NCBI RefSeq assembly: GCF_947494755.1
Contig: NZ_CANLVZ010000009.1
Coordinates: forward strand, 1-64,000
Direction: 5' to 3'
DNA from: an uncultured Tateyamaria sp.
GTDB taxonomy: Bacteria; Pseudomonadota; Alphaproteobacteria; Rhodobacterales; Rhodobacteraceae
DNA length: 64,000 bases
The notes beneath the pieces were generated by a model. That model made no database searches. It was given only the letters and a program-made list of their open reading frames with translations, and was not told the origin of the DNA. Of this stretch, positions 52,689-62,852 are shown one piece after another; positions within the stretch are counted from its first letter, which is position 1; every line of letters begins with the position of its first letter. The position numbers and the translations under genes were made by a program.

Positions 52689-55600
52689 ATGCCGAAAAGA
52701 ACCGATATCAACACGATCATGATCATCGGCGCGGGCCCCATTGTCATTGGTCAGGCCTGCGAGTTCGACTACTCCGGCGCTCAAGCCTGCAAGGCCCTGC
52801 GTGAAGAAGGCTACCGGGTCGTCCTCGTCAACTCGAACCCCGCCACCATCATGACCGACCCCGGGCTGGCCGATGCCACCTATATCGAGCCGATCACCCC
52901 CGAGGTGGTCGCCAAGATCATCGAGAAAGAACGCCCCGATGCGCTGCTGCCCACCATGGGCGGACAGACCGGGCTGAACACCTCGCTTGCGCTGGAAGAG
53001 ATGGGCGTGCTGGACAAATTCGGCGTCGAGATGATCGGGGCCAAGCGGGAGGCCATCGAGATGGCCGAAGATCGCAAGCTGTTCCGCGAGGCGATGGACC
53101 GCCTTGGCATCGAAAACCCCCGCGCGACAATCGTGACCGCGCCCGTCGATGCCGATGGCAAGAAGGACCTTGCCGCAGGCGTCGCGATTGCGCTGCAAAC
53201 GCTTGAGGATATCGGCCTTCCGGCCATCATCCGCCCCGCCTTTACCCTTGGCGGCACTGGCGGCGGCGTCGCCTACAATCGGGATGATTACGAGGCGATC
53301 TGCCGCTCGGGGATGGACGCTTCCCCCGTCGGTCAGATCCTGGTCGATGAATCCCTGCTTGGCTGGAAAGAATACGAGATGGAGGTGGTGCGCGACACCG
53401 CCGACAACGCGATTATCGTCTGTTCCATCGAGAACGTCGACCCGATGGGCGTGCATACAGGCGATTCTATCACCGTGGCCCCAGCCCTCACGCTGACCGA
53501 CAAGGAATACCAGATCATGCGTAACCACTCGATTGCGGTGCTGCGCGAGATCGGCGTCGAAACGGGTGGCTCAAACGTGCAATGGGCAATCAACCCCGAA
53601 GACGGGCGCATGGTCGTGATCGAGATGAACCCCCGCGTATCGCGCTCCTCGGCGCTGGCGTCCAAGGCGACCGGTTTTCCGATTGCCAAGATCGCGGCCA
53701 AGCTGGCGGTCGGCTACACCCTCGATGAACTCGACAACGACATCACCAAGGTGACGCCCGCCTCGTTCGAGCCAACCATCGACTATGTGGTCACCAAGAT
53801 CCCCAAATTCGCGTTCGAAAAGTTCCCCGGGTCCGAGGCGACTCTGACCACCGCGATGAAATCGGTGGGCGAGGTCATGGCCGTTGGGCGTACCTTCCAC
53901 GAATCGTTGCTCAAGGCGCTGGCATCCATGGAATCCGGCCTCACCGGCTTGGATGACATCGACATCCCCGGTGCGCCGGACAAGGCGGCGGTGGTCAAGG
54001 CGATCTCGGTGCAGACCCCCGACCGGTTGCGCCTGATCGCGCAAGCCATGCGCCATGGGCTGTCGGACGATGAAATTCACGGCGTCACGATGTTCGACCC
54101 CTGGTTCCTCGCCCGTCTGCGCGAGATTGTCGACACCGAAGATGCGGTGCGCCGCGACGGGCTGCCCGACAGCGAAGAGGGGCTGCGCCGCCTCAAGATG
54201 ATGGGCTTTACGGATGCGCGTCTGGCCACTTTGACGGACAGCCGTGAAGCGGATGTGCGCGCCCTGCGCGACAGCCTCGGGGTCCATGCCGTGTTCAAGC
54301 GGATCGACACCTGCGCCGCCGAGTTCGAGGCGCAAACGCCGTATATGTACTCGACCTATGAAACGCCGGTGTTCGGCGAGGCGGAATGCGAGGCCCGCCC
54401 GTCGGATCGCAAGAAAGTGGTCATTCTGGGCGGCGGTCCCAACCGGATCGGGCAAGGGATCGAGTTCGACTATTGCTGCTGTCATGCCTGTTTTGCGCTC
54501 ACGGATGCGGGCTATGAAACAATCATGATCAACTGCAACCCCGAGACGGTGTCGACCGACTATGACACCTCCGACAGGTTGTATTTTGAACCGCTGACTT
54601 TTGAACACGTCATGGAAATCATGCGTGTCGAGCAGGACAACGGCACCTTGCACGGCGTGATCGTGCAGTTTGGGGGGCAGACCCCGCTGAAGCTCGCCAA
54701 TGCGCTGGAAGAGGCGGGTATTCCGATCCTTGGCACCACGCCGGACGCGATTGATCTGGCCGAAGATCGCGAGCGGTTCCAGAAGCTGGTGCAGGATCTG
54801 GGCCTGAAGCAACCCAAGAACGGGATTGCGCATTCCGACGATGAAGCCCTTGCAATCGCAGAAGATATTGGCTTCCCACTGGTGATACGTCCGTCTTATG
54901 TCTTGGGTGGTCGGGCGATGGAAATCGTGCGCGATATGGGCCAATTGCGCCGCTACATCTCCGAAGCTGTGGTGGTGTCGGGCGACAGCCCCGTCCTGCT
55001 CGACAGCTATTTGTCAGGCGCCGTCGAATTGGATGTGGATGCGCTGTGCGACGGCACCGACGTGCATGTGGCCGGCATCATGCAGCACATCGAAGAGGCG
55101 GGCGTGCATTCGGGCGACAGCGCCTGTTCGCTGCCCCCCTACTCGCTTGGCAAGGACGTGATCGCCGAAATAGAAGTGCAGACTCGCGCACTGGCCTTGG
55201 CGCTTAACGTGGTCGGCTTGATGAACATCCAGTTCGCGGTGCAGGGCGACGACATCTACCTGATTGAGGTCAACCCGCGTGCCTCGCGCACCGTACCCTT
55301 CGTCGCCAAGTCGACCGACAGCGCGATTGCATCCATAGCGGCGCGGATCATGGCCGGTGAGCCGCTTTCCAACTTCCCCCTGCGCGCGCCCTATGATGCG
55401 AGCGCCAGCTATGATGCGGTGCTGCCTTTGGGCGATCCGATGACGCTGGCCGATCCGAACATGCCGTGGTTCTCGGTGAAAGAGGCCGTGTTGCCCTTTG
55501 CCCGTTTCCCCGGCGTGGACACGATTCTGGGTCCCGAAATGCGTTCAACCGGGGAGGTGATGGGCTGGGATCGCACTTTTGGGCGCGCCTTCCTCAAGGC

Positions 55601-56021
55601 GCAGATGGGTGCAGGCATGGTGCTGCCCGACGCGGGATGCGCCTTTGTCTCGATCAAGGATATGGACAAGACGCCCGAGATGCTCGAGGCTGCGCAAATC
55701 CTGACGGGCCTTGGCTTCACGCTTGTGGCGACCCGCGGCACGTCGGCCTGGCTGAATGAACAGGGTGTTGAGTGCGGCGTGGTGAACAAGGTCTATGAGG
55801 GCCGCCCCGACGTGACCGACATGATGAAGGACGGGCGCATCCAACTGGTGCTGAACACGACCGAAGGGGCGCAAGCGGTCGAGGATTCAAAGTCAATCCG
55901 CTCCATCGCGCTTTATGACAAGATCCCTTATTTCACGACCGCAGCGGGGGCCTACGCCGCCGCGCTCGCCATTCGCGAACAGGCGCAAGGCGATGTCGGG
56001 GTCAAGGCGCTGCAAGGTTGA
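52689..56021 (+). CDS. carB: Carbamoyl-phosphate synthase large subunit
   Basis: 1110 residues. Two ATP-grasp synthetase halves ([20 protein letters not shown] and [19 protein letters not shown]), the [10 protein letters not shown] and [11 protein letters not shown] loops, and a C-terminal allosteric domain (about 970-1110) bind ornithine/UMP-type effectors. With the CarA glutaminase (not in the window) it makes carbamoyl phosphate for arginine and pyrimidine synthesis. Slightly longer than E. coli CarB owing to small inserts. Its TGA is immediately followed by the stop of the convergent PilJ-like gene. Confidence 0.97.
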
Positions 56022-56840
56022 TCATTCGATCAACCCGTCAAAACGGGCTGCGACGTCGTTCAAATTCCTGAGGATGGCGTCGCCCAAAACCGACGCAAGT
56101 TGGATGTCGCGCATGTCGACCGGGTCCCCCCGTGCGGCCTGTTCCAGAATGGGCGCGAGCGTGGTCCATTTGCTGGCCACTTTGCCCAAGGTAACTTTGA
56201 TGTGAATGTTGGGCGCTTTGATAATGGATTTGTCAGGGTTCCCGTTCATCAGATCGTCAATCGTCTGTTCAAATTCGACGATATGGACCGTCATGACCTT
56301 CGCAGCACCTGACCACGCAAGATCGGTTTCCAGCAGGCACAGATCACGCTGCACCTGTTGCGACACGGCCCGCATCCGGTGAACCGCCCGGTAGGCGGGC
56401 CGCATCTCGTGCAGCGCGGCCGGAACGGTGGCCCCGCTTGCGATGTCGCCAAGTGTGTCGGACACAATCGGGTTGAAACGCAAAAGCAACCCCGCAGGCA
56501 CAGTGTGCAGGTCCCCTGCCGCCACCTGCTTGGCTGACACGGACATCGTGTGGCCAATATCGCGCAAACTTTTGATCTGGTTTCGATCCTCGCCCGCGCT
56601 GGTTGCCAAAAGCCGTTCAAGCCCGGCATCAAGAGCGGTCGAGGACGCCTCGATATCGTCGGCATGTATCTGCGCCTCGGCCCCCATGAGGACTAGGCAG
56701 GCCGACTTGGCAATGCGATGGGTCAACACAGCCTGATCCATAACCTGCACCATCGAAACCGGCTGCGCCGCGCTGGACACCGGCAAGATCAGAAGAAAAC
56801 AACACAGATATGAAAACAGCGCCCGCATGACGCTCCGCAT
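56022..56840 (-). CDS. Exported helical protein, PilJ-like sensor region
   Basis: 272 residues. A signal peptide or membrane anchor (ALFSYLCCFLLILPVSSAA) and then an all-helical periplasmic domain. QVMDQAVLTHRIAKSACLVLMG resembles the paired-helix start of PilJ/NarX-type sensor domains (INLAGRQRMLSQRMAK in PilJ). There is no methyl-accepting or kinase part. The pair of domains (about 40-150 and 160-270) look like two repeats. Last gene of the minus-strand cluster with the COX-like enzyme; 33 bases after the hydrolase. Confidence 0.55.
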   Translation of the reverse strand: MRSVMRALFSYLCCFLLILPVSSAAQPVSMVQVMDQAVLTHRIAKSACLVLMGAEAQIHADDIEASSTALDAGLERLLATSAGEDRNQIKSLRDIGHTMSVSAKQVAAGDLHTVPAGLLLRFNPIVSDTLGDIASGATVPAALHEMRPAYRAVHRMRAVSQQVQRDLCLLETDLAWSGAAKVMTVHIVEFEQTIDDLMNGNPDKSIIKAPNIHIKVTLGKVASKWTTLAPILEQAARGDPVDMRDIQLASVLGDAILRNLNDVAARFDGLIE

Positions 56841-56873
56841 ATCCCATCGACATTACTGCGCAATTAACACCGA

Positions 56874-58736
56874 TCAGACCAGATGAATGAAATCCTTTTT
56901 CACGTAATTCCGGGTCGAGGCCTTGGCTTCACCACCGTTGTTATTGCTGCCATTTGTGTTGCCTTCGATGGTGTCAAAATCGCTTCTGTTTGCATTTGAA
57001 ACGATGCCGACATGGTTCCAGTCATTGGCCGTCTTGCGGATCACGAACAGCATGCCCGGCAGGACTTTGGAGGGGCGCAGGTTCGCATCCTTTACGGCGG
57101 CCTCGCTCAGGAAACGCCCGGCGGCCTTGGCGTCCTTGACCAGTTGGTCGCAGCTGACCTGCCGCTTGAACGGCATCTTGATCCCCATGTCGCGTGCTGC
57201 TTGGGCGGCCAGTGTCGAAACGAAACCCGCACACCATAGCTGCGCATCGCCCTCGCGCCCCTTCATATACAGACGCACCCATGGGCCACGGTTCTGCCCT
57301 GCGCGCTCCTGAGGGGCTTGGGCGATGTGCTGGCGCGCGATCTTGAGGTAGGTGGCGTTCAAATCCGCCTCGACGGTGACGGGCATCAGGGCACGACGCA
57401 TGGGTGCGGTCAGCAGCAGCCACGTTTCGCGGTCCACCTCGCCTGTCACAGGCAGGGCATTGCGCTGCTGGAAACGGGACACGCTTTTGGCTGTCCCCTC
57501 ACCGAAATCATCATCAACAGCCGTCGAAATCCCATGCAGATCACACCATTCCTGAATACGCCGGGCTGTCATCCCGTCAGTGCCCTTGCCAAAGTGCTGG
57601 TTGTGGGTCCCGGGAAAGTCGACCTCCTTGGCGGCATGCGGAAAGGGGCTGAGATCCAGCGTGGCCATATCCGTGCTGCCCAGCACCCCGGCAGGCGCGG
57701 GCGAGATCACCTTGCGCTGCGCGGATATCGTCACCAGATCCCGGTCGATCATCCGTTTGAGCAAACAGGCCGCTCCGACCTGTTGAGACACCGCGTTGGG
57801 ATCGAACTTGCCGTCTGCGACATACTTCCCTTTGTCGAAATACTCCGACCCGCTCCACAGATAGGGGCTCATGCGGCCACGGTTGCGGTAGCCAAGGCCG
57901 TTATAACGCTCAAGTACCTCGAGGGCGGGGCCGACGGACCAGTCAGTTACACTGCCAAGGCTGCGCCCTGCCCCGGTCAGCGCGTCCGCGGCACTTTCGG
58001 CCCAGGTCATACCCAATCGCCAGCTTTCAGGGCGTCCCACGGGCACACGCACTGTCGGCGCGCTGAGCGGGTCGCCATTGTGGAGGTGCAGTTTGAAATT
58101 CGCGCTCGCCTCAAGCATGTGGATGATGCACACGACCCACCACGGCACGCCGGTCATCTGCTCGACCCGCCGATAGCGGACGGTGCGATCAGGCTTGGTC
58201 ATCAGGTCCACGACGCCATCAATCCGATCAAGCCACGCATCGCGCAATTGCACCGCGTCAAACCAAGCCTGATAGTCCTTGGCCGTTGTGGGTGGGCCGT
58301 CAGAGGTATCGGCCACCTGCACCGGCAATGGAGATGGTGGAAGCGTTGGGGCCGGATCCGGCGCGGGGGGGGGCACCACGGGCATCTGTTGGGGTTCATG
58401 GTCAGTTTCGGGTGCGGGGTGGTGACGCACCTTGCGGATCATCGTCCCCGCCTTTTCCGCAAGCGCATCTGCCGCCGCCTTGAGGTCCTCGAGGAACATG
58501 GTGTCGACCTTGTGCTGCACCTCGCCCGTGGCCTGATCCAACCGGTCCGCCAGCCCTGCGATCTCGGCGGCTGCATTGGCGAGTTGACCAAGGCGGAACC
58601 GCTGCTCGGCCCGTTTCAGGTCTTCATAGAGCGCCTCAAGCCGCACCATCTCCTCTTGGCGGTTCTCGGCACTGGCTTTGACGTATTTCTGGCGTGCCTC
58701 GTCCTTCAATGCGAGGATATCCTCAAGCGTGACCAT
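56874..58736 (-). CDS. Three-domain peptidoglycan hydrolase (lysozyme-like, PG-binding, CHAP)
   Basis: 620 residues. Residues 1-105 form a coiled coil, 110-148 a Pro-rich linker, about 150-345 a lysozyme-like domain (GVPWWVVCIIHMLEASANFK with Glu209 as likely catalytic acid, and RYNGLGYRNRGRMSPYLWSG), 375-445 a peptidoglycan-binding repeat (FGEGTAKSVSRFQQRNAL), and 480-620 a CHAP amidase with Cys502 (LWCAGF), His575 (NHVGIV) and Glu591. It would cut both glycan and peptide. No signal peptide is seen, so export needs another route. Similar domain sets occur in phage and secreted lysins; no phage genes surround it. Confidence 0.8.
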   Translation of the reverse strand: MVTLEDILALKDEARQKYVKASAENRQEEMVRLEALYEDLKRAEQRFRLGQLANAAAEIAGLADRLDQATGEVQHKVDTMFLEDLKAAADALAEKAGTMIRKVRHHPAPETDHEPQQMPVVPPPAPDPAPTLPPSPLPVQVADTSDGPPTTAKDYQAWFDAVQLRDAWLDRIDGVVDLMTKPDRTVRYRRVEQMTGVPWWVVCIIHMLEASANFKLHLHNGDPLSAPTVRVPVGRPESWRLGMTWAESAADALTGAGRSLGSVTDWSVGPALEVLERYNGLGYRNRGRMSPYLWSGSEYFDKGKYVADGKFDPNAVSQQVGAACLLKRMIDRDLVTISAQRKVISPAPAGVLGSTDMATLDLSPFPHAAKEVDFPGTHNQHFGKGTDGMTARRIQEWCDLHGISTAVDDDFGEGTAKSVSRFQQRNALPVTGEVDRETWLLLTAPMRRALMPVTVEADLNATYLKIARQHIAQAPQERAGQNRGPWVRLYMKGREGDAQLWCAGFVSTLAAQAARDMGIKMPFKRQVSCDQLVKDAKAAGRFLSEAAVKDANLRPSKVLPGMLFVIRKTANDWNHVGIVSNANRSDFDTIEGNTNGSNNNGGEAKASTRNYVKKDFIHLV

Positions 58737-58787
58737 ATCAAAAGTCCTCCTCTAAAATGTCGGGTGCCCTGAAAATAGGGGCCTAAT

Positions 58788-59753
58788 CTATTGAGCAGCG
58801 AGGGCGGCGCGCACCCCTTGGGCTGCTGCGTCCATCTCGGCAATGGTCTGTAAAATACTGGCCGAATTGGCACGCGATTGACGGTTTTCGATGGCATCCA
58901 CCGAGTGGGCCAAGGCAACGCGGGTGTTTTCCAACAGGACAACCCAATTGGCCAACAACACCTGCAACCCTTCGATCCGCGCCACCTCGGCTTGCGAAAA
59001 TCCACGCAGGCCGCTGATCGTGTCGCGGTCAAACAGCAAATCCCCGATCAGCACGCAAAAGATCGACGTCGTCGCCGCCTCAAAGCAGGCGCGCTTGGGA
59101 TCGGTGCTGATCTTGCCGCCCGCGCCGGGTGCCGCCGTGGTGCCGGTCAGCGCAATCAGCTTGTCGAATATCGCATCAATGGTGGGGGCCTGTTCGACCA
59201 CCGTCTTTTGAAACTCTGCACGGGTCAGCACACCGAAAGCGGCTGTCGTTGCAGGCTCAAGCGCGCGCAAGGGCTGCGCGCGGGTGGCCAGACTGTCAAT
59301 CACAGCCCGTTGTCCGGGTCCGACCGGGGCAACGATACGTGCGCCCAAGGACGTCGCTTGCGTTCCGATCTGGGTGAGGCGATTGGCCAGAGTCGTTGCG
59401 GATTCCCCTGTCGCCAGCCCCGAGACGGTCTGCGTGTAGGTGTTCAGAATATCCAGCGACTTGCGCAAAGAGGCCGTCGCAGGCGGGTCAATCCCCGGCG
59501 CAAGATAGCGCGCCTCGCCCGGATCGAAATAGACCGTGCGGGGCGTGATGGGCACGCGGGCATTTTCGAACGCCTTACGCTCGGCCACGGCCAGCTTGTC
59601 GAGGACGGATTGGCCGACCTGATAGGACTGATTGAACGAGGCCTGATAGACCGCAAATTCATTCGCACCGGGGCTGATACAGGCCGACAAAACCAGCAAG
59701 GCAAATGTCGCAGCGCACAGGCGAGCCAACGGCTTGGAGTTGAAAGGAAACAC
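58788..59753 (-). CDS. Lipoprotein of unknown function
   Basis: 321 residues from a GTG at 59753 supported by AAGGAG; an ATG start further upstream would put about 48 extra residues before the signal peptide. Signal peptide with lipobox LSAC (VLSACISPG). The mature protein is helical, Ala-rich, with one Cys pair (KRACFEAA, IFCVL). No family recognised. Second gene of the minus-strand cluster, between the COX-like enzyme and the peptidoglycan hydrolase. Confidence 0.75.
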   Translation of the reverse strand: MFPFNSKPLARLCAATFALLVLSACISPGANEFAVYQASFNQSYQVGQSVLDKLAVAERKAFENARVPITPRTVYFDPGEARYLAPGIDPPATASLRKSLDILNTYTQTVSGLATGESATTLANRLTQIGTQATSLGARIVAPVGPGQRAVIDSLATRAQPLRALEPATTAAFGVLTRAEFQKTVVEQAPTIDAIFDKLIALTGTTAAPGAGGKISTDPKRACFEAATTSIFCVLIGDLLFDRDTISGLRGFSQAEVARIEGLQVLLANWVVLLENTRVALAHSVDAIENRQSRANSASILQTIAEMDAAAQGVRAALAAQ

Positions 59754-59942
59754 AACAGGCTCCTTTTGAAAAAATGGATCGAACAAAAAAACGAGAACGA
59801 ACAATCGGTATTTATATGAACAGAAAACTACCGCGCGGCGCTTACGCCAACGGTTTTGTGGCCTTTGCACCCACAAGTTGAACGCAGTGCGGCGCATCGG
59901 CCACAGCCTTAGACAACGATGCAGACCCCCCGTTGGGGCCGG

Positions 59943-61505
59943 TTATTCGGGCCGCCACTCATCCCGCGTCATGGCGATAAAGGTCCCGGCCACGCCGCCT
60001 TCCACATTGCGCTCAACGATATCGCGGATCGTGTCGGTGCTGTGGATCGCATCCCATCCCGGCGCCGAGAACGTCTCGCGTTTGAAGACGTGTTCGGACA
60101 ACAGCGGGTTGCTGAATGCCTGGCTGAACGCGTCCAGTGCCACGAACAAAAGCACCAGATTGGGCAGGGGGCTGTTGGGCACGCGATCTTCACAGAACAG
60201 ACCCACATGGAAATCCACGTCGCGCGGGCTGACATAGTGTTCGGCCAATGCGGCGGCCACCTCCGGGTCGGACGAGATCGCCTCGAAGGTCGCGGGTCGG
60301 TCCTGCCCCATATAGGCGCAATAGTCCGAGAAACTGGCCAGTTCGCAGAACCGATCCTGCTTGATCGACGCCTCTTCGATATGCAGCAGATGTTCGGCGG
60401 TGTTGCGCGGGCCCAGTTCGGCGGCTTGGGTCTGGCTGACGCCCGAAAAGGCACGTTTGAGGCCATGATCTATCAGCAGCGCGTTGTTCATGAAAGTGTG
60501 GTGGACGGGGTGCATCTCTCCGCCCCATTTCATCTCGTCGGGGATCAGCGCGTGCCAGCGATAAAGCAGGCTGAATTCGGTGGTGATCCAGTTGGGCTTG
60601 TTCCAGGGCGCACGCCAGGCCACTGATGGGTCAGCGCGCAAGGTGAAGGGCAAGGGTGAGATGTGGTTGATGTAATCCTCGACCACCATCTTGATGAACA
60701 GCACGATCACCGCATTGCGGGTCGTCTCGAATACCCGATCATCGTCCCAGTCGGGATGTGCGGCCTCGATCTTGCCCGCAAGCCGGTTGTGTTCGCGCAG
60801 AAACAGGGTGTTGAGCATGGACACCTGCGGCACGGAATTGGCCCGATCGCCGCCAAAGGCGAACAGCGTGGCGCGGCGCGCGTCATCAATCGAGCTGTCC
60901 CCCAAGGGCGAATCCAGCACCTCAAATTGCGGGTCCACCTTGCCACCCGCGTAAAGGAAGGGCGCGTATTCCTCGCCATTGATCATCTGTGATTTGAGCC
61001 GTCCACGCTGACCAATATCGGACGACTTCAGGCGCAGCGCATGGGTCTGATCAATCGTGCGCCCATACAAAGGGCACAAGTCAATCTCGTGATTGGAGGT
61101 GTTGCGCTTGAGCCGGGTATCACCCCCATGCCCATGCGGCGTCAGCGTTTCGGACTCCGTGCGGATGAACCCATCCGTCAGATACTGCGCAAAGGCCGGG
61201 AACAGACAGGTTGATTTCGGACACAGGCGCTGTTTCCCCGCCCGGCGGGCAAAGAGATCGCGCAAGGCGGCCGGGTCCGGTGCATTCTCGCGAGGGCGCG
61301 GCGGCAGATGCCGCGCGCTCCACCGACGGTCCGTGAGACCCTGCCAAGAAACATAGTCGCGTTCAGTGCTCAGCGGATGAGGTCGAAACCGGGCGCGATT
61401 GACGACACGGTTAATCGCCCACCGGTTCACCCACGCATCCAGAGGCGGCATCGCCTCGACAATGGAAAAGAGGGTCTGACGGATTGAATAGGAAAATGAA
61501 GGCAT
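59943..61505 (-). CDS. Cyclooxygenase-like (animal haem peroxidase superfamily) enzyme
   Basis: 520 residues. The catalytic core aligns by eye with prostaglandin H synthase: LNTLFLREHNRLAGKIEAAH with R-E-H-N at 237-240, VVEDYINHIS at 274-283, TTEFSLLYRWHALIPDEM with radical Tyr315 and proximal haem His318, and ETFSAPGWDAIHSTDTIRD near the end. The distal site FAQYLTDGF has Gln107 but Asp111 where cyclooxygenase has the distal His. It is cytoplasmic (no signal peptide) and lacks the EGF domain. It could oxygenate a fatty acid, but peroxidase activity may be weak. First gene of its cluster. Confidence 0.82.
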   Translation of the reverse strand: MPSFSYSIRQTLFSIVEAMPPLDAWVNRWAINRVVNRARFRPHPLSTERDYVSWQGLTDRRWSARHLPPRPRENAPDPAALRDLFARRAGKQRLCPKSTCLFPAFAQYLTDGFIRTESETLTPHGHGGDTRLKRNTSNHEIDLCPLYGRTIDQTHALRLKSSDIGQRGRLKSQMINGEEYAPFLYAGGKVDPQFEVLDSPLGDSSIDDARRATLFAFGGDRANSVPQVSMLNTLFLREHNRLAGKIEAAHPDWDDDRVFETTRNAVIVLFIKMVVEDYINHISPLPFTLRADPSVAWRAPWNKPNWITTEFSLLYRWHALIPDEMKWGGEMHPVHHTFMNNALLIDHGLKRAFSGVSQTQAAELGPRNTAEHLLHIEEASIKQDRFCELASFSDYCAYMGQDRPATFEAISSDPEVAAALAEHYVSPRDVDFHVGLFCEDRVPNSPLPNLVLLFVALDAFSQAFSNPLLSEHVFKRETFSAPGWDAIHSTDTIRDIVERNVEGGVAGTFIAMTRDEWRPE

Positions 61506-61727
61506 AATGGGACGCTCAGAAAATGGGATGAATAATGCCGCGATCATCCCCCAACAACGCACGCATTTCCAGCAATAGTTGAATATCATCCCCGCCAGGG
61601 GGACGCGGAAATCCGCCAATACGTCCGCCGCCACAGACCGGATGGCGTTTCATGAGGTCCTCGGTTATGATCCGGTCAAATCTAAAAAAACAATCAAATG
61701 CAACGCCTTACATCGCCGGGATCTGGT

Positions 61728-62852
61728 ATGGCACAGCCCACCTTCACCTTTGAGGATCGCGACGGACAGGCGACTGTGCGGCTGGCCGGACGACTGGTGA
61801 CGCAGCACCTGAACCTTGTCGACGACGACTTTGCCAACACCACCGCCAAAAGCAACTCGCTGCGCGTTGATTTGAGCGACCTTGACGCGCTGGACACGGG
61901 CGGCGCGTGGTTGATCGCCCATTTGCAAGACCGGCTCGAGCGCGATGGAGTGCGCGTCGATGTCGCCGGTGCCGATGCGAACCAAACCGCCCTGCTGCGC
62001 ACCGTGCGCGAAGCTTTGCCGTCCGAAAAAGGCGTCGAGGACATTCCGCGCGGCCTGCTTGTCTGGGTGTCTGGTATAGGAGCCAAGACGGCAGGCGTCG
62101 GGGCCTCGATGGTGTCGCTGCTCAGCTTTACGGGCGAGATGCTGACGAGCCTATTTGGCACTATTCTGCGCCCCAAACGCTGGCGCCCCGCGGCCCTTGT
62201 CAGCCAGATGCAGGATGCCGGGTTCAACGCGATCCCTATTGTCGTGTTGATGAGTTTTCTGATCGGAGTTGTGCTGTCCTTTCAGGGGGCCTCGCAATTG
62301 CGCCAGTTCGGGGCAGAGGTGTTTGTGGTCGACCTGATCGCCATCTCGATCCTGCGCGAACTGGGCATCCTGCTGACCGCGATCATCGTGGCGGGCCGGT
62401 CGGGCTCGGCTTTTACCGCCTCAATCGGGTCGATGAAGGTGCGGGAGGAACTCGACGCGATGCGCACCCTTGGTCTTGACCCGATGGAGGTCCTGGTGCT
62501 GCCCCGTGTCATCGCGCTGATCATCATGCTGCCGATCCTTGGCTTCATCGCCAATGTTTCGGGGCTGGTCGGGGGGGCGTTGATGAGCTGGATCGAACTT
62601 GGCGTCAGTCCGGGCATGTTCGTATCGCGCCTGCAGGAAAACACCGATGTGTCCCATCTGGTGATCGGGATGGCCAAAGCGCCCTTCTTTGCCGCCGTGA
62701 TCGGGGTTGTGTCCTGCTGGCAGGCCATGCAGGTGCGCGGCTCAGCCGACAGTGTGGGGCATCAGACGACCATCTCGGTTGTGCAATCCATCTTTCTGGT
62801 GATCGTGGTTGATGCCATGTTCTCCATCTTCTTTGCGGAGCTCGGATTGTGA
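61728..62852 (+). CDS. mlaE: MlaE-family ABC transporter permease with N-terminal STAS domain
   Basis: 374 residues from the ATG at 61728; a start at 61698 is possible. N-terminal about 100 residues form a STAS domain (LRVDLSDLDALDTGGAWLIAHL), as fused in many alphaproteobacterial MlaE proteins. The permease part has PIVVLMSFLIGVVLSFQGASQLRQFG and AGRSGSAFTASIGSMKVREE and five or so membrane segments. With the next two genes it moves phospholipids or other lipids between the inner and outer membranes. Confidence 0.92.
   Translation: MAQPTFTFEDRDGQATVRLAGRLVTQHLNLVDDDFANTTAKSNSLRVDLSDLDALDTGGAWLIAHLQDRLERDGVRVDVAGADANQTALLRTVREALPSEKGVEDIPRGLLVWVSGIGAKTAGVGASMVSLLSFTGEMLTSLFGTILRPKRWRPAALVSQMQDAGFNAIPIVVLMSFLIGVVLSFQGASQLRQFGAEVFVVDLIAISILRELGILLTAIIVAGRSGSAFTASIGSMKVREELDAMRTLGLDPMEVLVLPRVIALIIMLPILGFIANVSGLVGGALMSWIELGVSPGMFVSRLQENTDVSHLVIGMAKAPFFAAVIGVVSCWQAMQVRGSADSVGHQTTISVVQSIFLVIVVDAMFSIFFAELGL

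Follow-up and report, generated by a model that had tools for sequence, protein, structure and literature searches.

The stretch of DNA considered here (hereafter the window) comprises 64,000 nucleotides of an uncultured Tateyamaria sp. (positions 1 to 64,000 of contig NZ_CANLVZ010000009.1, assembly GCF_947494755.1) and carries four long minus-strand open reading frames (ORFs) spanning 56022-61505, as an earlier note made from the letters alone had rightly seen. In the order in which they are read, they encode (i) a haem dioxygenase resembling cyclooxygenases, hereafter COX, predicted to be of the bacterial 10S-dioxygenase kind (59943..61505), (ii) a predicted lipoprotein, hereafter LPP (58788..59753), (iii) a signal-less modular protein predicted to be a peptidoglycan hydrolase, hereafter LYS (56874..58736), and (iv) a PilJ-domain protein (56022..56840). 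The genes are separated by 189, 51 and 33 nt (192, 54 and 36 when the stop codon is counted), on contig C9 of a 4.1-Mb genome in 60 contigs (G000). The earlier note read them as one system, possibly antagonistic or remodelling the envelope, with an oxidised-lipid step. As will be seen, the locus is very probably three unrelated things lying side by side, i.e. a COX gene, a lipoprotein-hydrolase module and a PilJ gene, among which the module, composed of LPP and LYS, is a real two-gene unit.

The ATG at 59897 listed as the start of LPP probably lies too far upstream, as a frame change is seen before about residue 37 in the corresponding gene of a near relative (L001). The start is very likely the GTG at 59753, which yields a hydrophobic N-terminus and the lipobox LSAC, so that the earlier lipoprotein call stands as a prediction of lipidation. 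Relatives of LPP occur at 12 loci (the window, L196, L197, L198, L208, L217, L218, L219, L220, L228, L234 and L235), not counting L001, a near-copy of the window, and H18, a near-copy of H17. LPP searches by themselves yielded ten of the 12; the others are the window and L228, which was reached through its lysozyme-like domain, the gene upstream then proving to be an LPP. Dropped before the count were a match with two stops (G209, E 7e-4), partial C-terminal ones on an ABC-transporter-like frame (G472, G344) and a marginal profile match in L077. Apart from L196/L197, the LPPs are only ~17-45% identical in pairs; with leave-one-out profiles, every held-out member (12/12) ranked first against 277 ORFs and 600 shuffled sequences, with E between 5e-25 and 2e-94 (8e-42 for the window). 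The window LPP matches no Pfam family and nothing in the PDB below E 0.05. In a 10-row alignment of the family (A3, without L228, L234 and L235), the lipobox Cys is invariant, one of the ten members matched Talin_VBS2 (E 0.0012), and in the PDB nothing scored better than E 0.05. A structure model of LPP consists entirely of helices, with a mean predicted local distance difference test score (pLDDT) of 72.7, i.e. moderate confidence. In E. coli, lipoproteins without an Asp after the lipobox Cys are sorted to the outer membrane, and no such Asp is seen in the 11 LPPs viewed. LPP is thus predicted to reside in the cell's own periplasm, probably at the outer membrane.

At all 12 loci, a gene on the same strand begins 11-51 nt downstream of LPP (51 nt in the window), and the pair recurs across several families of Alphaproteobacteria. 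None of these 12 partners, LYS included, starts with a hydrophobic signal: hydrophobicity over the first 45 residues is at most 1.3, against 2.1-3.3 in the 12 LPPs. The 620-residue LYS consists of an N-terminal domain (residues 1-100; 58437..58736), a lysozyme-like domain (165-345; 57702..58244), a PG_binding_1 domain (405-439; 57420..57524; PF01471, E 1.4e-10) and a CHAP-like domain (498-593; 56958..57245). The earlier description of a lysozyme-PGB-CHAP hydrolase without signal peptide fares unevenly. The missing hydrophobic N-terminus and the peptidoglycan-binding part are clear; CHAP falls below the Pfam cut-off (PF05257, E 1.4e-4, 22.7 versus 26 bits) and is supported by a PHROGs endolysin match (E 2.5e-10); and the 'lysozyme' part has no match in Pfam (E up to 0.1) or the PDB (E up to 1). 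It is, however, a conserved domain with a Glu209 that is invariant in 8/8 aligned proteins, from which we infer its lysozyme-like name.

What partners of different LPPs have in common lies at the other end. When profiles of the first 100 residues were built leaving one partner out and run against 257 ORFs and 1300 shuffles (support being E below 0.001, and the window LYS, which sat among the decoys, being ignored there), the N-domain was supported at seven of the 12 loci, namely the window (E 5.5e-7, rank 1), L196 (which leans on its near-copy L197), L197, L198, L208, L217 and L219. In LYS this domain has no counterpart in Pfam at E up to 0.1, and two other partners have weak coiled-coil matches there (P0002, E 0.08; L220, E 0.011). 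After it and a linker comes a recognisable peptidoglycan-hydrolase cargo at 10/12 loci, and this cargo changes: lysozyme-like, PG_binding_1 and CHAP in the window, PG_binding_1 and SLT (the latter slightly below the Pfam cut-off) in L197, L198 and L217, and probably the same in L196 (judged by BLAST similarity to those three). DUF2272 is paired with Hydrolase_2 in L208 and L234 and with phage lysozyme in L235, and the lysozyme-like domain with peptidase M15 in L228, standing alone in L219.

Relatives of these cargo domains turn up elsewhere. A protein of Myxococcus phage Mx4 (OK085710.1 45671-46390) shares 39.5% identity with the PGB-CHAP end of LYS, and the lysozyme-like domain is also found in other proteins on Rhizobiales/Caulobacter plasmids (L226, L227:4700-7453, L228, L229), one of which is annotated as a DNA/RNA non-specific endonuclease, with caspase family, CHAT or serine protease annotations nearby. 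Genes for patatin-like phospholipases adjoin LYS-type or module hydrolases at three loci (L225:6062-9332, L200:5439-8687 and L198:9570-10523), as supported by Pfam for L200 (E 5.7e-20) and L198 (E 7.8e-31) and by annotation only for L225.

Which part of its partner does LPP follow? Identities between LPPs correlate with those between N-domains (r 0.86 over 12 loci, 0.61 without L196; p 0.0005, 2000 permutations, species relatedness being uncorrected). For cargo, 11 LPPs were compared (L196 left out), PG_binding being ignored and L218 and L220 counted as sharing none; outside the SLT group, LPP identity averages 0.20 for six same-cargo pairs versus 0.24 for the 46 pairs in which no shared cargo is known. 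LPP similarity hence follows the N-domain more than the cargo, and its failure to track cargo outside the SLT group speaks against cargo-specific immunity. The same data bear on the idea that LPP and hydrolase are separate genes that happen to travel together without joint function. Several copies are carried by plasmids (L228, L234, L235) or by a contig assigned to viruses (L217), on which genes may remain neighbours without being related; this would suit the idea, but the same-strand spacing of 11-51 nt at 12/12 loci across several families, and the co-divergence with the N-domain of LPPs so weakly identical to each other, make it distinctly improbable.

The other two genes behave differently. 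Relatives of COX were confirmed at 125 places, the best 80 of which were kept, 52 with full 10-kb flanks and 28 with shorter ones (the comparison of conserved neighbours omitted seven of the 80, where a simple ORF picker missed the COX gene). LPP, LYS and PilJ were found beside COX at one of these 80 loci, L001, a near relative at 95% identity; at the 79 remaining loci, 12 of which are close relatives (L002-L012 and L035, 68-78% identity), the three genes were not found in the compared flanks. A profile of all LPPs run over the 80 loci returned L001 and a marginal match in L077 (E 0.0015, 16.5 bits). Seen from the other side, the neighbours within ~6-7 kb of the 11 other LPP loci include no match to the window COX at E 1e-4. 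What speaks for the proposal of the earlier note, in which all four genes form one system with an oxidised-lipid step, is that the order of the window is repeated in L001, which is the same locus as L241/G305 (84-96% identity). One near relative weighs little against these counts and against the company that PilJ keeps (see below), and the grouping now appears very improbable indeed; rare co-occurrence of the genes was the very outcome that the earlier note had named as telling against it. In the COX-LPP gap (59754..59942, minus strand), a hairpin lies directly 3' of the COX stop in the window, not with the same sequence in L001; promoter and terminator scans of the window gave sites no commoner than chance. 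A defence system was also considered and rejected, none of the four proteins having a match in PADLOC (up to E 0.1). In NCBIfam, COX, LPP and PilJ are without match, and LYS has partial matches only.

The PilJ-like call of the earlier note was sound as to the domain (PF13675, E 1.6e-7) and unsupported as to membership of a set. At 9/9 strong Tateyamaria loci outside the clade of the window (L191-L195, L236-L239), homologues with 43-50% identity are convergent with carB, and COX, LPP and LYS are not at these loci. Weaker homologues were looked for in three further genomes; those in L240 and L242 (22-24% identity) are not beside carB, and L243 has none at E 1e-5. In the window too, the gene faces a convergent ORF (52689..56021, plus strand) that, from its sequence, we take to be carB, for the large subunit of carbamoyl-phosphate synthase. 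The PilJ-like gene is therefore a usual neighbour of carB in the genus and not part of the module. The PilJ transducer of type IV pili carries a methyl-accepting signalling part besides its PilJ domain; only the N-terminal PilJ domain is found in this 272-residue protein, and that identity was rejected. Because COX, the pair and PilJ are each separable in these counts, they can be said to meet here, in one small clade.

The COX protein merits attention of its own. It matches An_peroxidase in Pfam (E 3.7e-38), and its closest solved structures are COX-1 (E ~4e-50) and COX-2 (from 9e-48), which bears out the earlier COX-like haem enzyme as far as kinship goes, although it belongs with the bacterial linoleate 10S-dioxygenases. 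In an alignment of 81 bacterial proteins, Gln203, Tyr348, Tyr385, Trp387 and His388 (COX-1 numbering) are invariant, so that the catalytic Tyr385, Tyr348 and the proximal His388 expected of a 10S-dioxygenase are retained throughout. The distal His207 is replaced by Asp (motif F-t-d-s-F) in 81/81 and Ser530 by Ala in 80/81, the remaining row being a gap, and an animal cyclooxygenase (PGHS) was rejected on these two positions. According to a 2015 account, bacterial cyclooxygenases were at that time known solely as putative sequences (PMC4420034). The linoleate 10S-dioxygenase of Nostoc punctiforme has been described as converting oleate and linoleate to 10S-hydroperoxides, with a separate catalase-related lyase, and as having the Asp motif F-t-d-s-F, the Tyr pair and the Ala (PMC13049297). 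The window COX agrees with it in the catalytic Tyr, second Tyr, proximal His, distal Asp and Ala at Ser530, and differs in having Val, not Ile, at Gly526. It also differs in its surroundings, the tandem catalase-related hydroperoxide lyase being not found in the window. Nor is a catalase-related gene present within 10 kb of COX in other Tateyamaria loci; such a homologue lies in the flank of 33/80 COX loci, none of them from Tateyamaria. Such a lyase is the product of a companion gene and no feature of the dioxygenase itself. The cyanobacterial catalase-related protein scores 24.2 against a Pfam catalase cut-off of 25 bits, and the Ruegeria form, without a Pfam match, owes its name to similarity to the cyanobacterial form only. 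The COX-like gene is thus predicted to encode a fatty-acid dioxygenase of the bacterial 10S-dioxygenase kind, substrate and product being predictions too, and it sets proteins of Rhodobacteraceae, Nitrosomonas and Erythrobacter beside a dioxygenase characterised in a cyanobacterium.

In a tree, the window protein groups with L001 among Roseobacteraceae, and at seven other Tateyamaria loci COX lies in a different neighbourhood, which is conserved among those seven. Next to the 10S-dioxygenase, 19 cyanobacterial COX loci (e.g. L047, L049-L054, L074) have a common upstream neighbour of ~335 residues, presumably a DUF2235-type alpha/beta hydrolase, which could possibly be a lipase feeding the dioxygenase. 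A second match of the animal haem peroxidase type exists in the window genome (G000:C1:349056-349628, L082; E 1.1e-8). On the far side of COX, the divergent flank (61698..62852, plus strand) is an mlaE-type permease (PF02405, E 6.7e-76) with an N-terminal STAS domain (PF13466, E 9.4e-7) in one gene.

To return to the module, it is rare and patchy in the genomes sampled, and its 12 loci are a small base. A single-sequence LPP search matched 3/295 genomes of the family (one match being dropped) and 5/20 of the genus, and a profile search 5/347 genomes of the class (one dropped as spurious) and 2/374 of the family. Copies are plasmid-borne in L228, L234 and L235 (the last on a Rhizobium phaseoli plasmid), and among viral contigs one, L217 (IMGVR_UViG_3300032138_001142), bears a pair of this family, either as a phage cargo gene or as host DNA. 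In searches of plasmids, the LPPs of the window and L220 had no matches and those of L228 and L234 found only themselves, while a phage search with the L197 LPP and viral-contig searches with the L197 and L235 LPPs returned nothing for the module. LYS matches occur in 12 plasmid records, five of which were examined, and one (L228) carries LPP. In the stretches examined at nine other loci with LYS-type cargo (L199-L203, L225-L227, L229), there is no LPP. A literature search, from whose coverage most subscription papers fall out, found no description of the pair; on this search and on Pfam, family and pair are undescribed.

What might such a module do? One answer, the main rival of the reading that we prefer, is that LPP uses the N-domain to tether a self-directed hydrolase to the envelope, in remodelling or programmed lysis, and does not serve as protection against it. 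It would explain why LPP similarity tracks the N-domain more closely than the cargo. Two further related proteins found beside the pair in L198 (4058-6120; Tateyamaria) and L235 (7139-9327), with E 3e-8 and 0.007, one with membrane stretches and the other with a signal-like start (as judged by eye), would fit an envelope assembly, and one module lies on a contig classed as viral. Yet with hydrolases devoid of a hydrophobic N-terminus at 12/12 loci, the route to such an anchor is missing, and a distribution as sparse as 2/374 family and 5/20 genus genomes is unlike that of housekeeping wall enzymes. Tethering is therefore possible and, in our view, somewhat unlikely.

We tentatively prefer, at a confidence a little short of even, a module that works like an antibacterial effector/immunity pair with recognition through the N-domain. 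LPP would go to the producer's own periplasm, probably to the outer membrane, while LYS, a signal-less modular peptidoglycan hydrolase, would be harmless in the producer's cytoplasm. Once released or delivered, the hydrolase would cut the wall of other cells, and LPP would bind the common N-terminal domain of any hydrolase entering its own periplasm and so catch it, a proposal under which the cutting domain is freely exchangeable precisely because LPP binds elsewhere. This pairing is favoured because the different predicted compartments, the upstream lipoprotein, the signal-less hydrolase and the exchangeable cargo resemble the effector/immunity (X-Tfe/X-Tfi) pairs of the Xanthomonadales type IV secretion system (X-T4SS). 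LPP family membership, gene order, spacing, cargo exchange and co-divergence are what was computed here; lipidation, compartments, enzyme activity, binding and antibacterial role are proposed for the module from these. What the earlier note had suggested about antagonism or the envelope thus lives on for LPP and LYS, a pair that recurs across Alphaproteobacteria, and is lost for COX and PilJ.

How the hydrolase would leave the cell is less obvious. The window strain might use a type VI secretion system (T6SS), with the pair as its effector and immunity protein and the N-domain as loading domain, since two VipB/TssC matches lie on contig C16 of its genome and others in G305, G297 and G263. However, VipB was found in three of nine LPP-carrying genomes (G000, G305, G297) and not in the other six (G302, G303, G101, G472, G392 and G515, the last with 91% completeness), VipB/TssC and the module (C9) lie on different contigs, and we hold this route to be improbable. 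In G263, VipB comes with a LYS relative and no LPP match.

Several points weigh against the effector/immunity reading. The co-divergence statistic ignores species kinship, and with the SLT group included the nine same-cargo LPP pairs average 0.26 versus 0.24. The N-domain is borderline (E 0.003-0.025) for L235, L220, L228 and L234, the last two scoring below the best shuffle's level, and unsupported for L218 (E 11). The downstream gene of L218, which may be a remnant, has only 100 residues and no hydrolase, and no hydrolase family is seen in the L220 partner, which is cut by the contig end. The activity of DUF2272 cargo is uncertain because a Ser replaces the catalytic Cys in this papain-like family, for which kinship with Tse1 and amidase function have been described as possible (PMC10318531). 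The carriers have no known secretion system in common, T6SS being the only one searched for, and a single lipoprotein family is found with unrelated cargo here, unlike X-Tfis, which bind the toxin cognate to them. Taken as a whole, a three-part locus with an effector/immunity-like module is the best explanation, with about an even chance of being right; its most specific form, a rare plasmid-borne and possibly phage-borne module of Alphaproteobacteria in which LPP, as one undescribed family, provides generic immunity to many unrelated peptidoglycan hydrolases via a common N-terminal delivery domain and not the toxic part, with delivery other than by T6SS, is rather unlikely. If the pairing holds, the implications would reach beyond this locus: immunity or anchoring via a common delivery domain would explain how one wall enzyme can replace another with no need for a fresh protector, and the LPP family would be a sequence handle for such hydrolases, some without known family, in marine and soil bacteria.

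Among known systems, the X-T4SS pairs offer the closest parallel. There, the immunity gene usually lies upstream of the effector, some immunity proteins have a lipobox, and the effectors are lysozyme-like or other peptidoglycan hydrolases, with a common domain on otherwise different effectors (PMC6536674); one X-Tfi is reported to shield the cell from its own effector (PMC10933484). In the window, a lipobox protein of putative immunity function is encoded 51 nt upstream of a predicted hydrolase. The common domain of X-T4SS effectors, XVIPCD, is C-terminal and ~120 residues long, in contrast to the N-terminal one here. LYS lacks this mark of an X-T4SS effector: the CHAP match stops at residue 593 of 620, Pfam shows no further domain, and the 27 residues that follow leave no room for an XVIPCD. 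Membership of the X-T4SS group is not claimed. Polymorphic toxin systems, described as combining one N-terminal region with exchangeable C-terminal enzymes (PMC3482391), offer a second parallel, since a common N-terminal region with exchanged C-terminal enzymes is what is seen here, at the seven of 12 loci where the N-domain is supported. In the present module, by contrast, it is the N-terminal domain and not the enzyme that the companion gene seems to follow.

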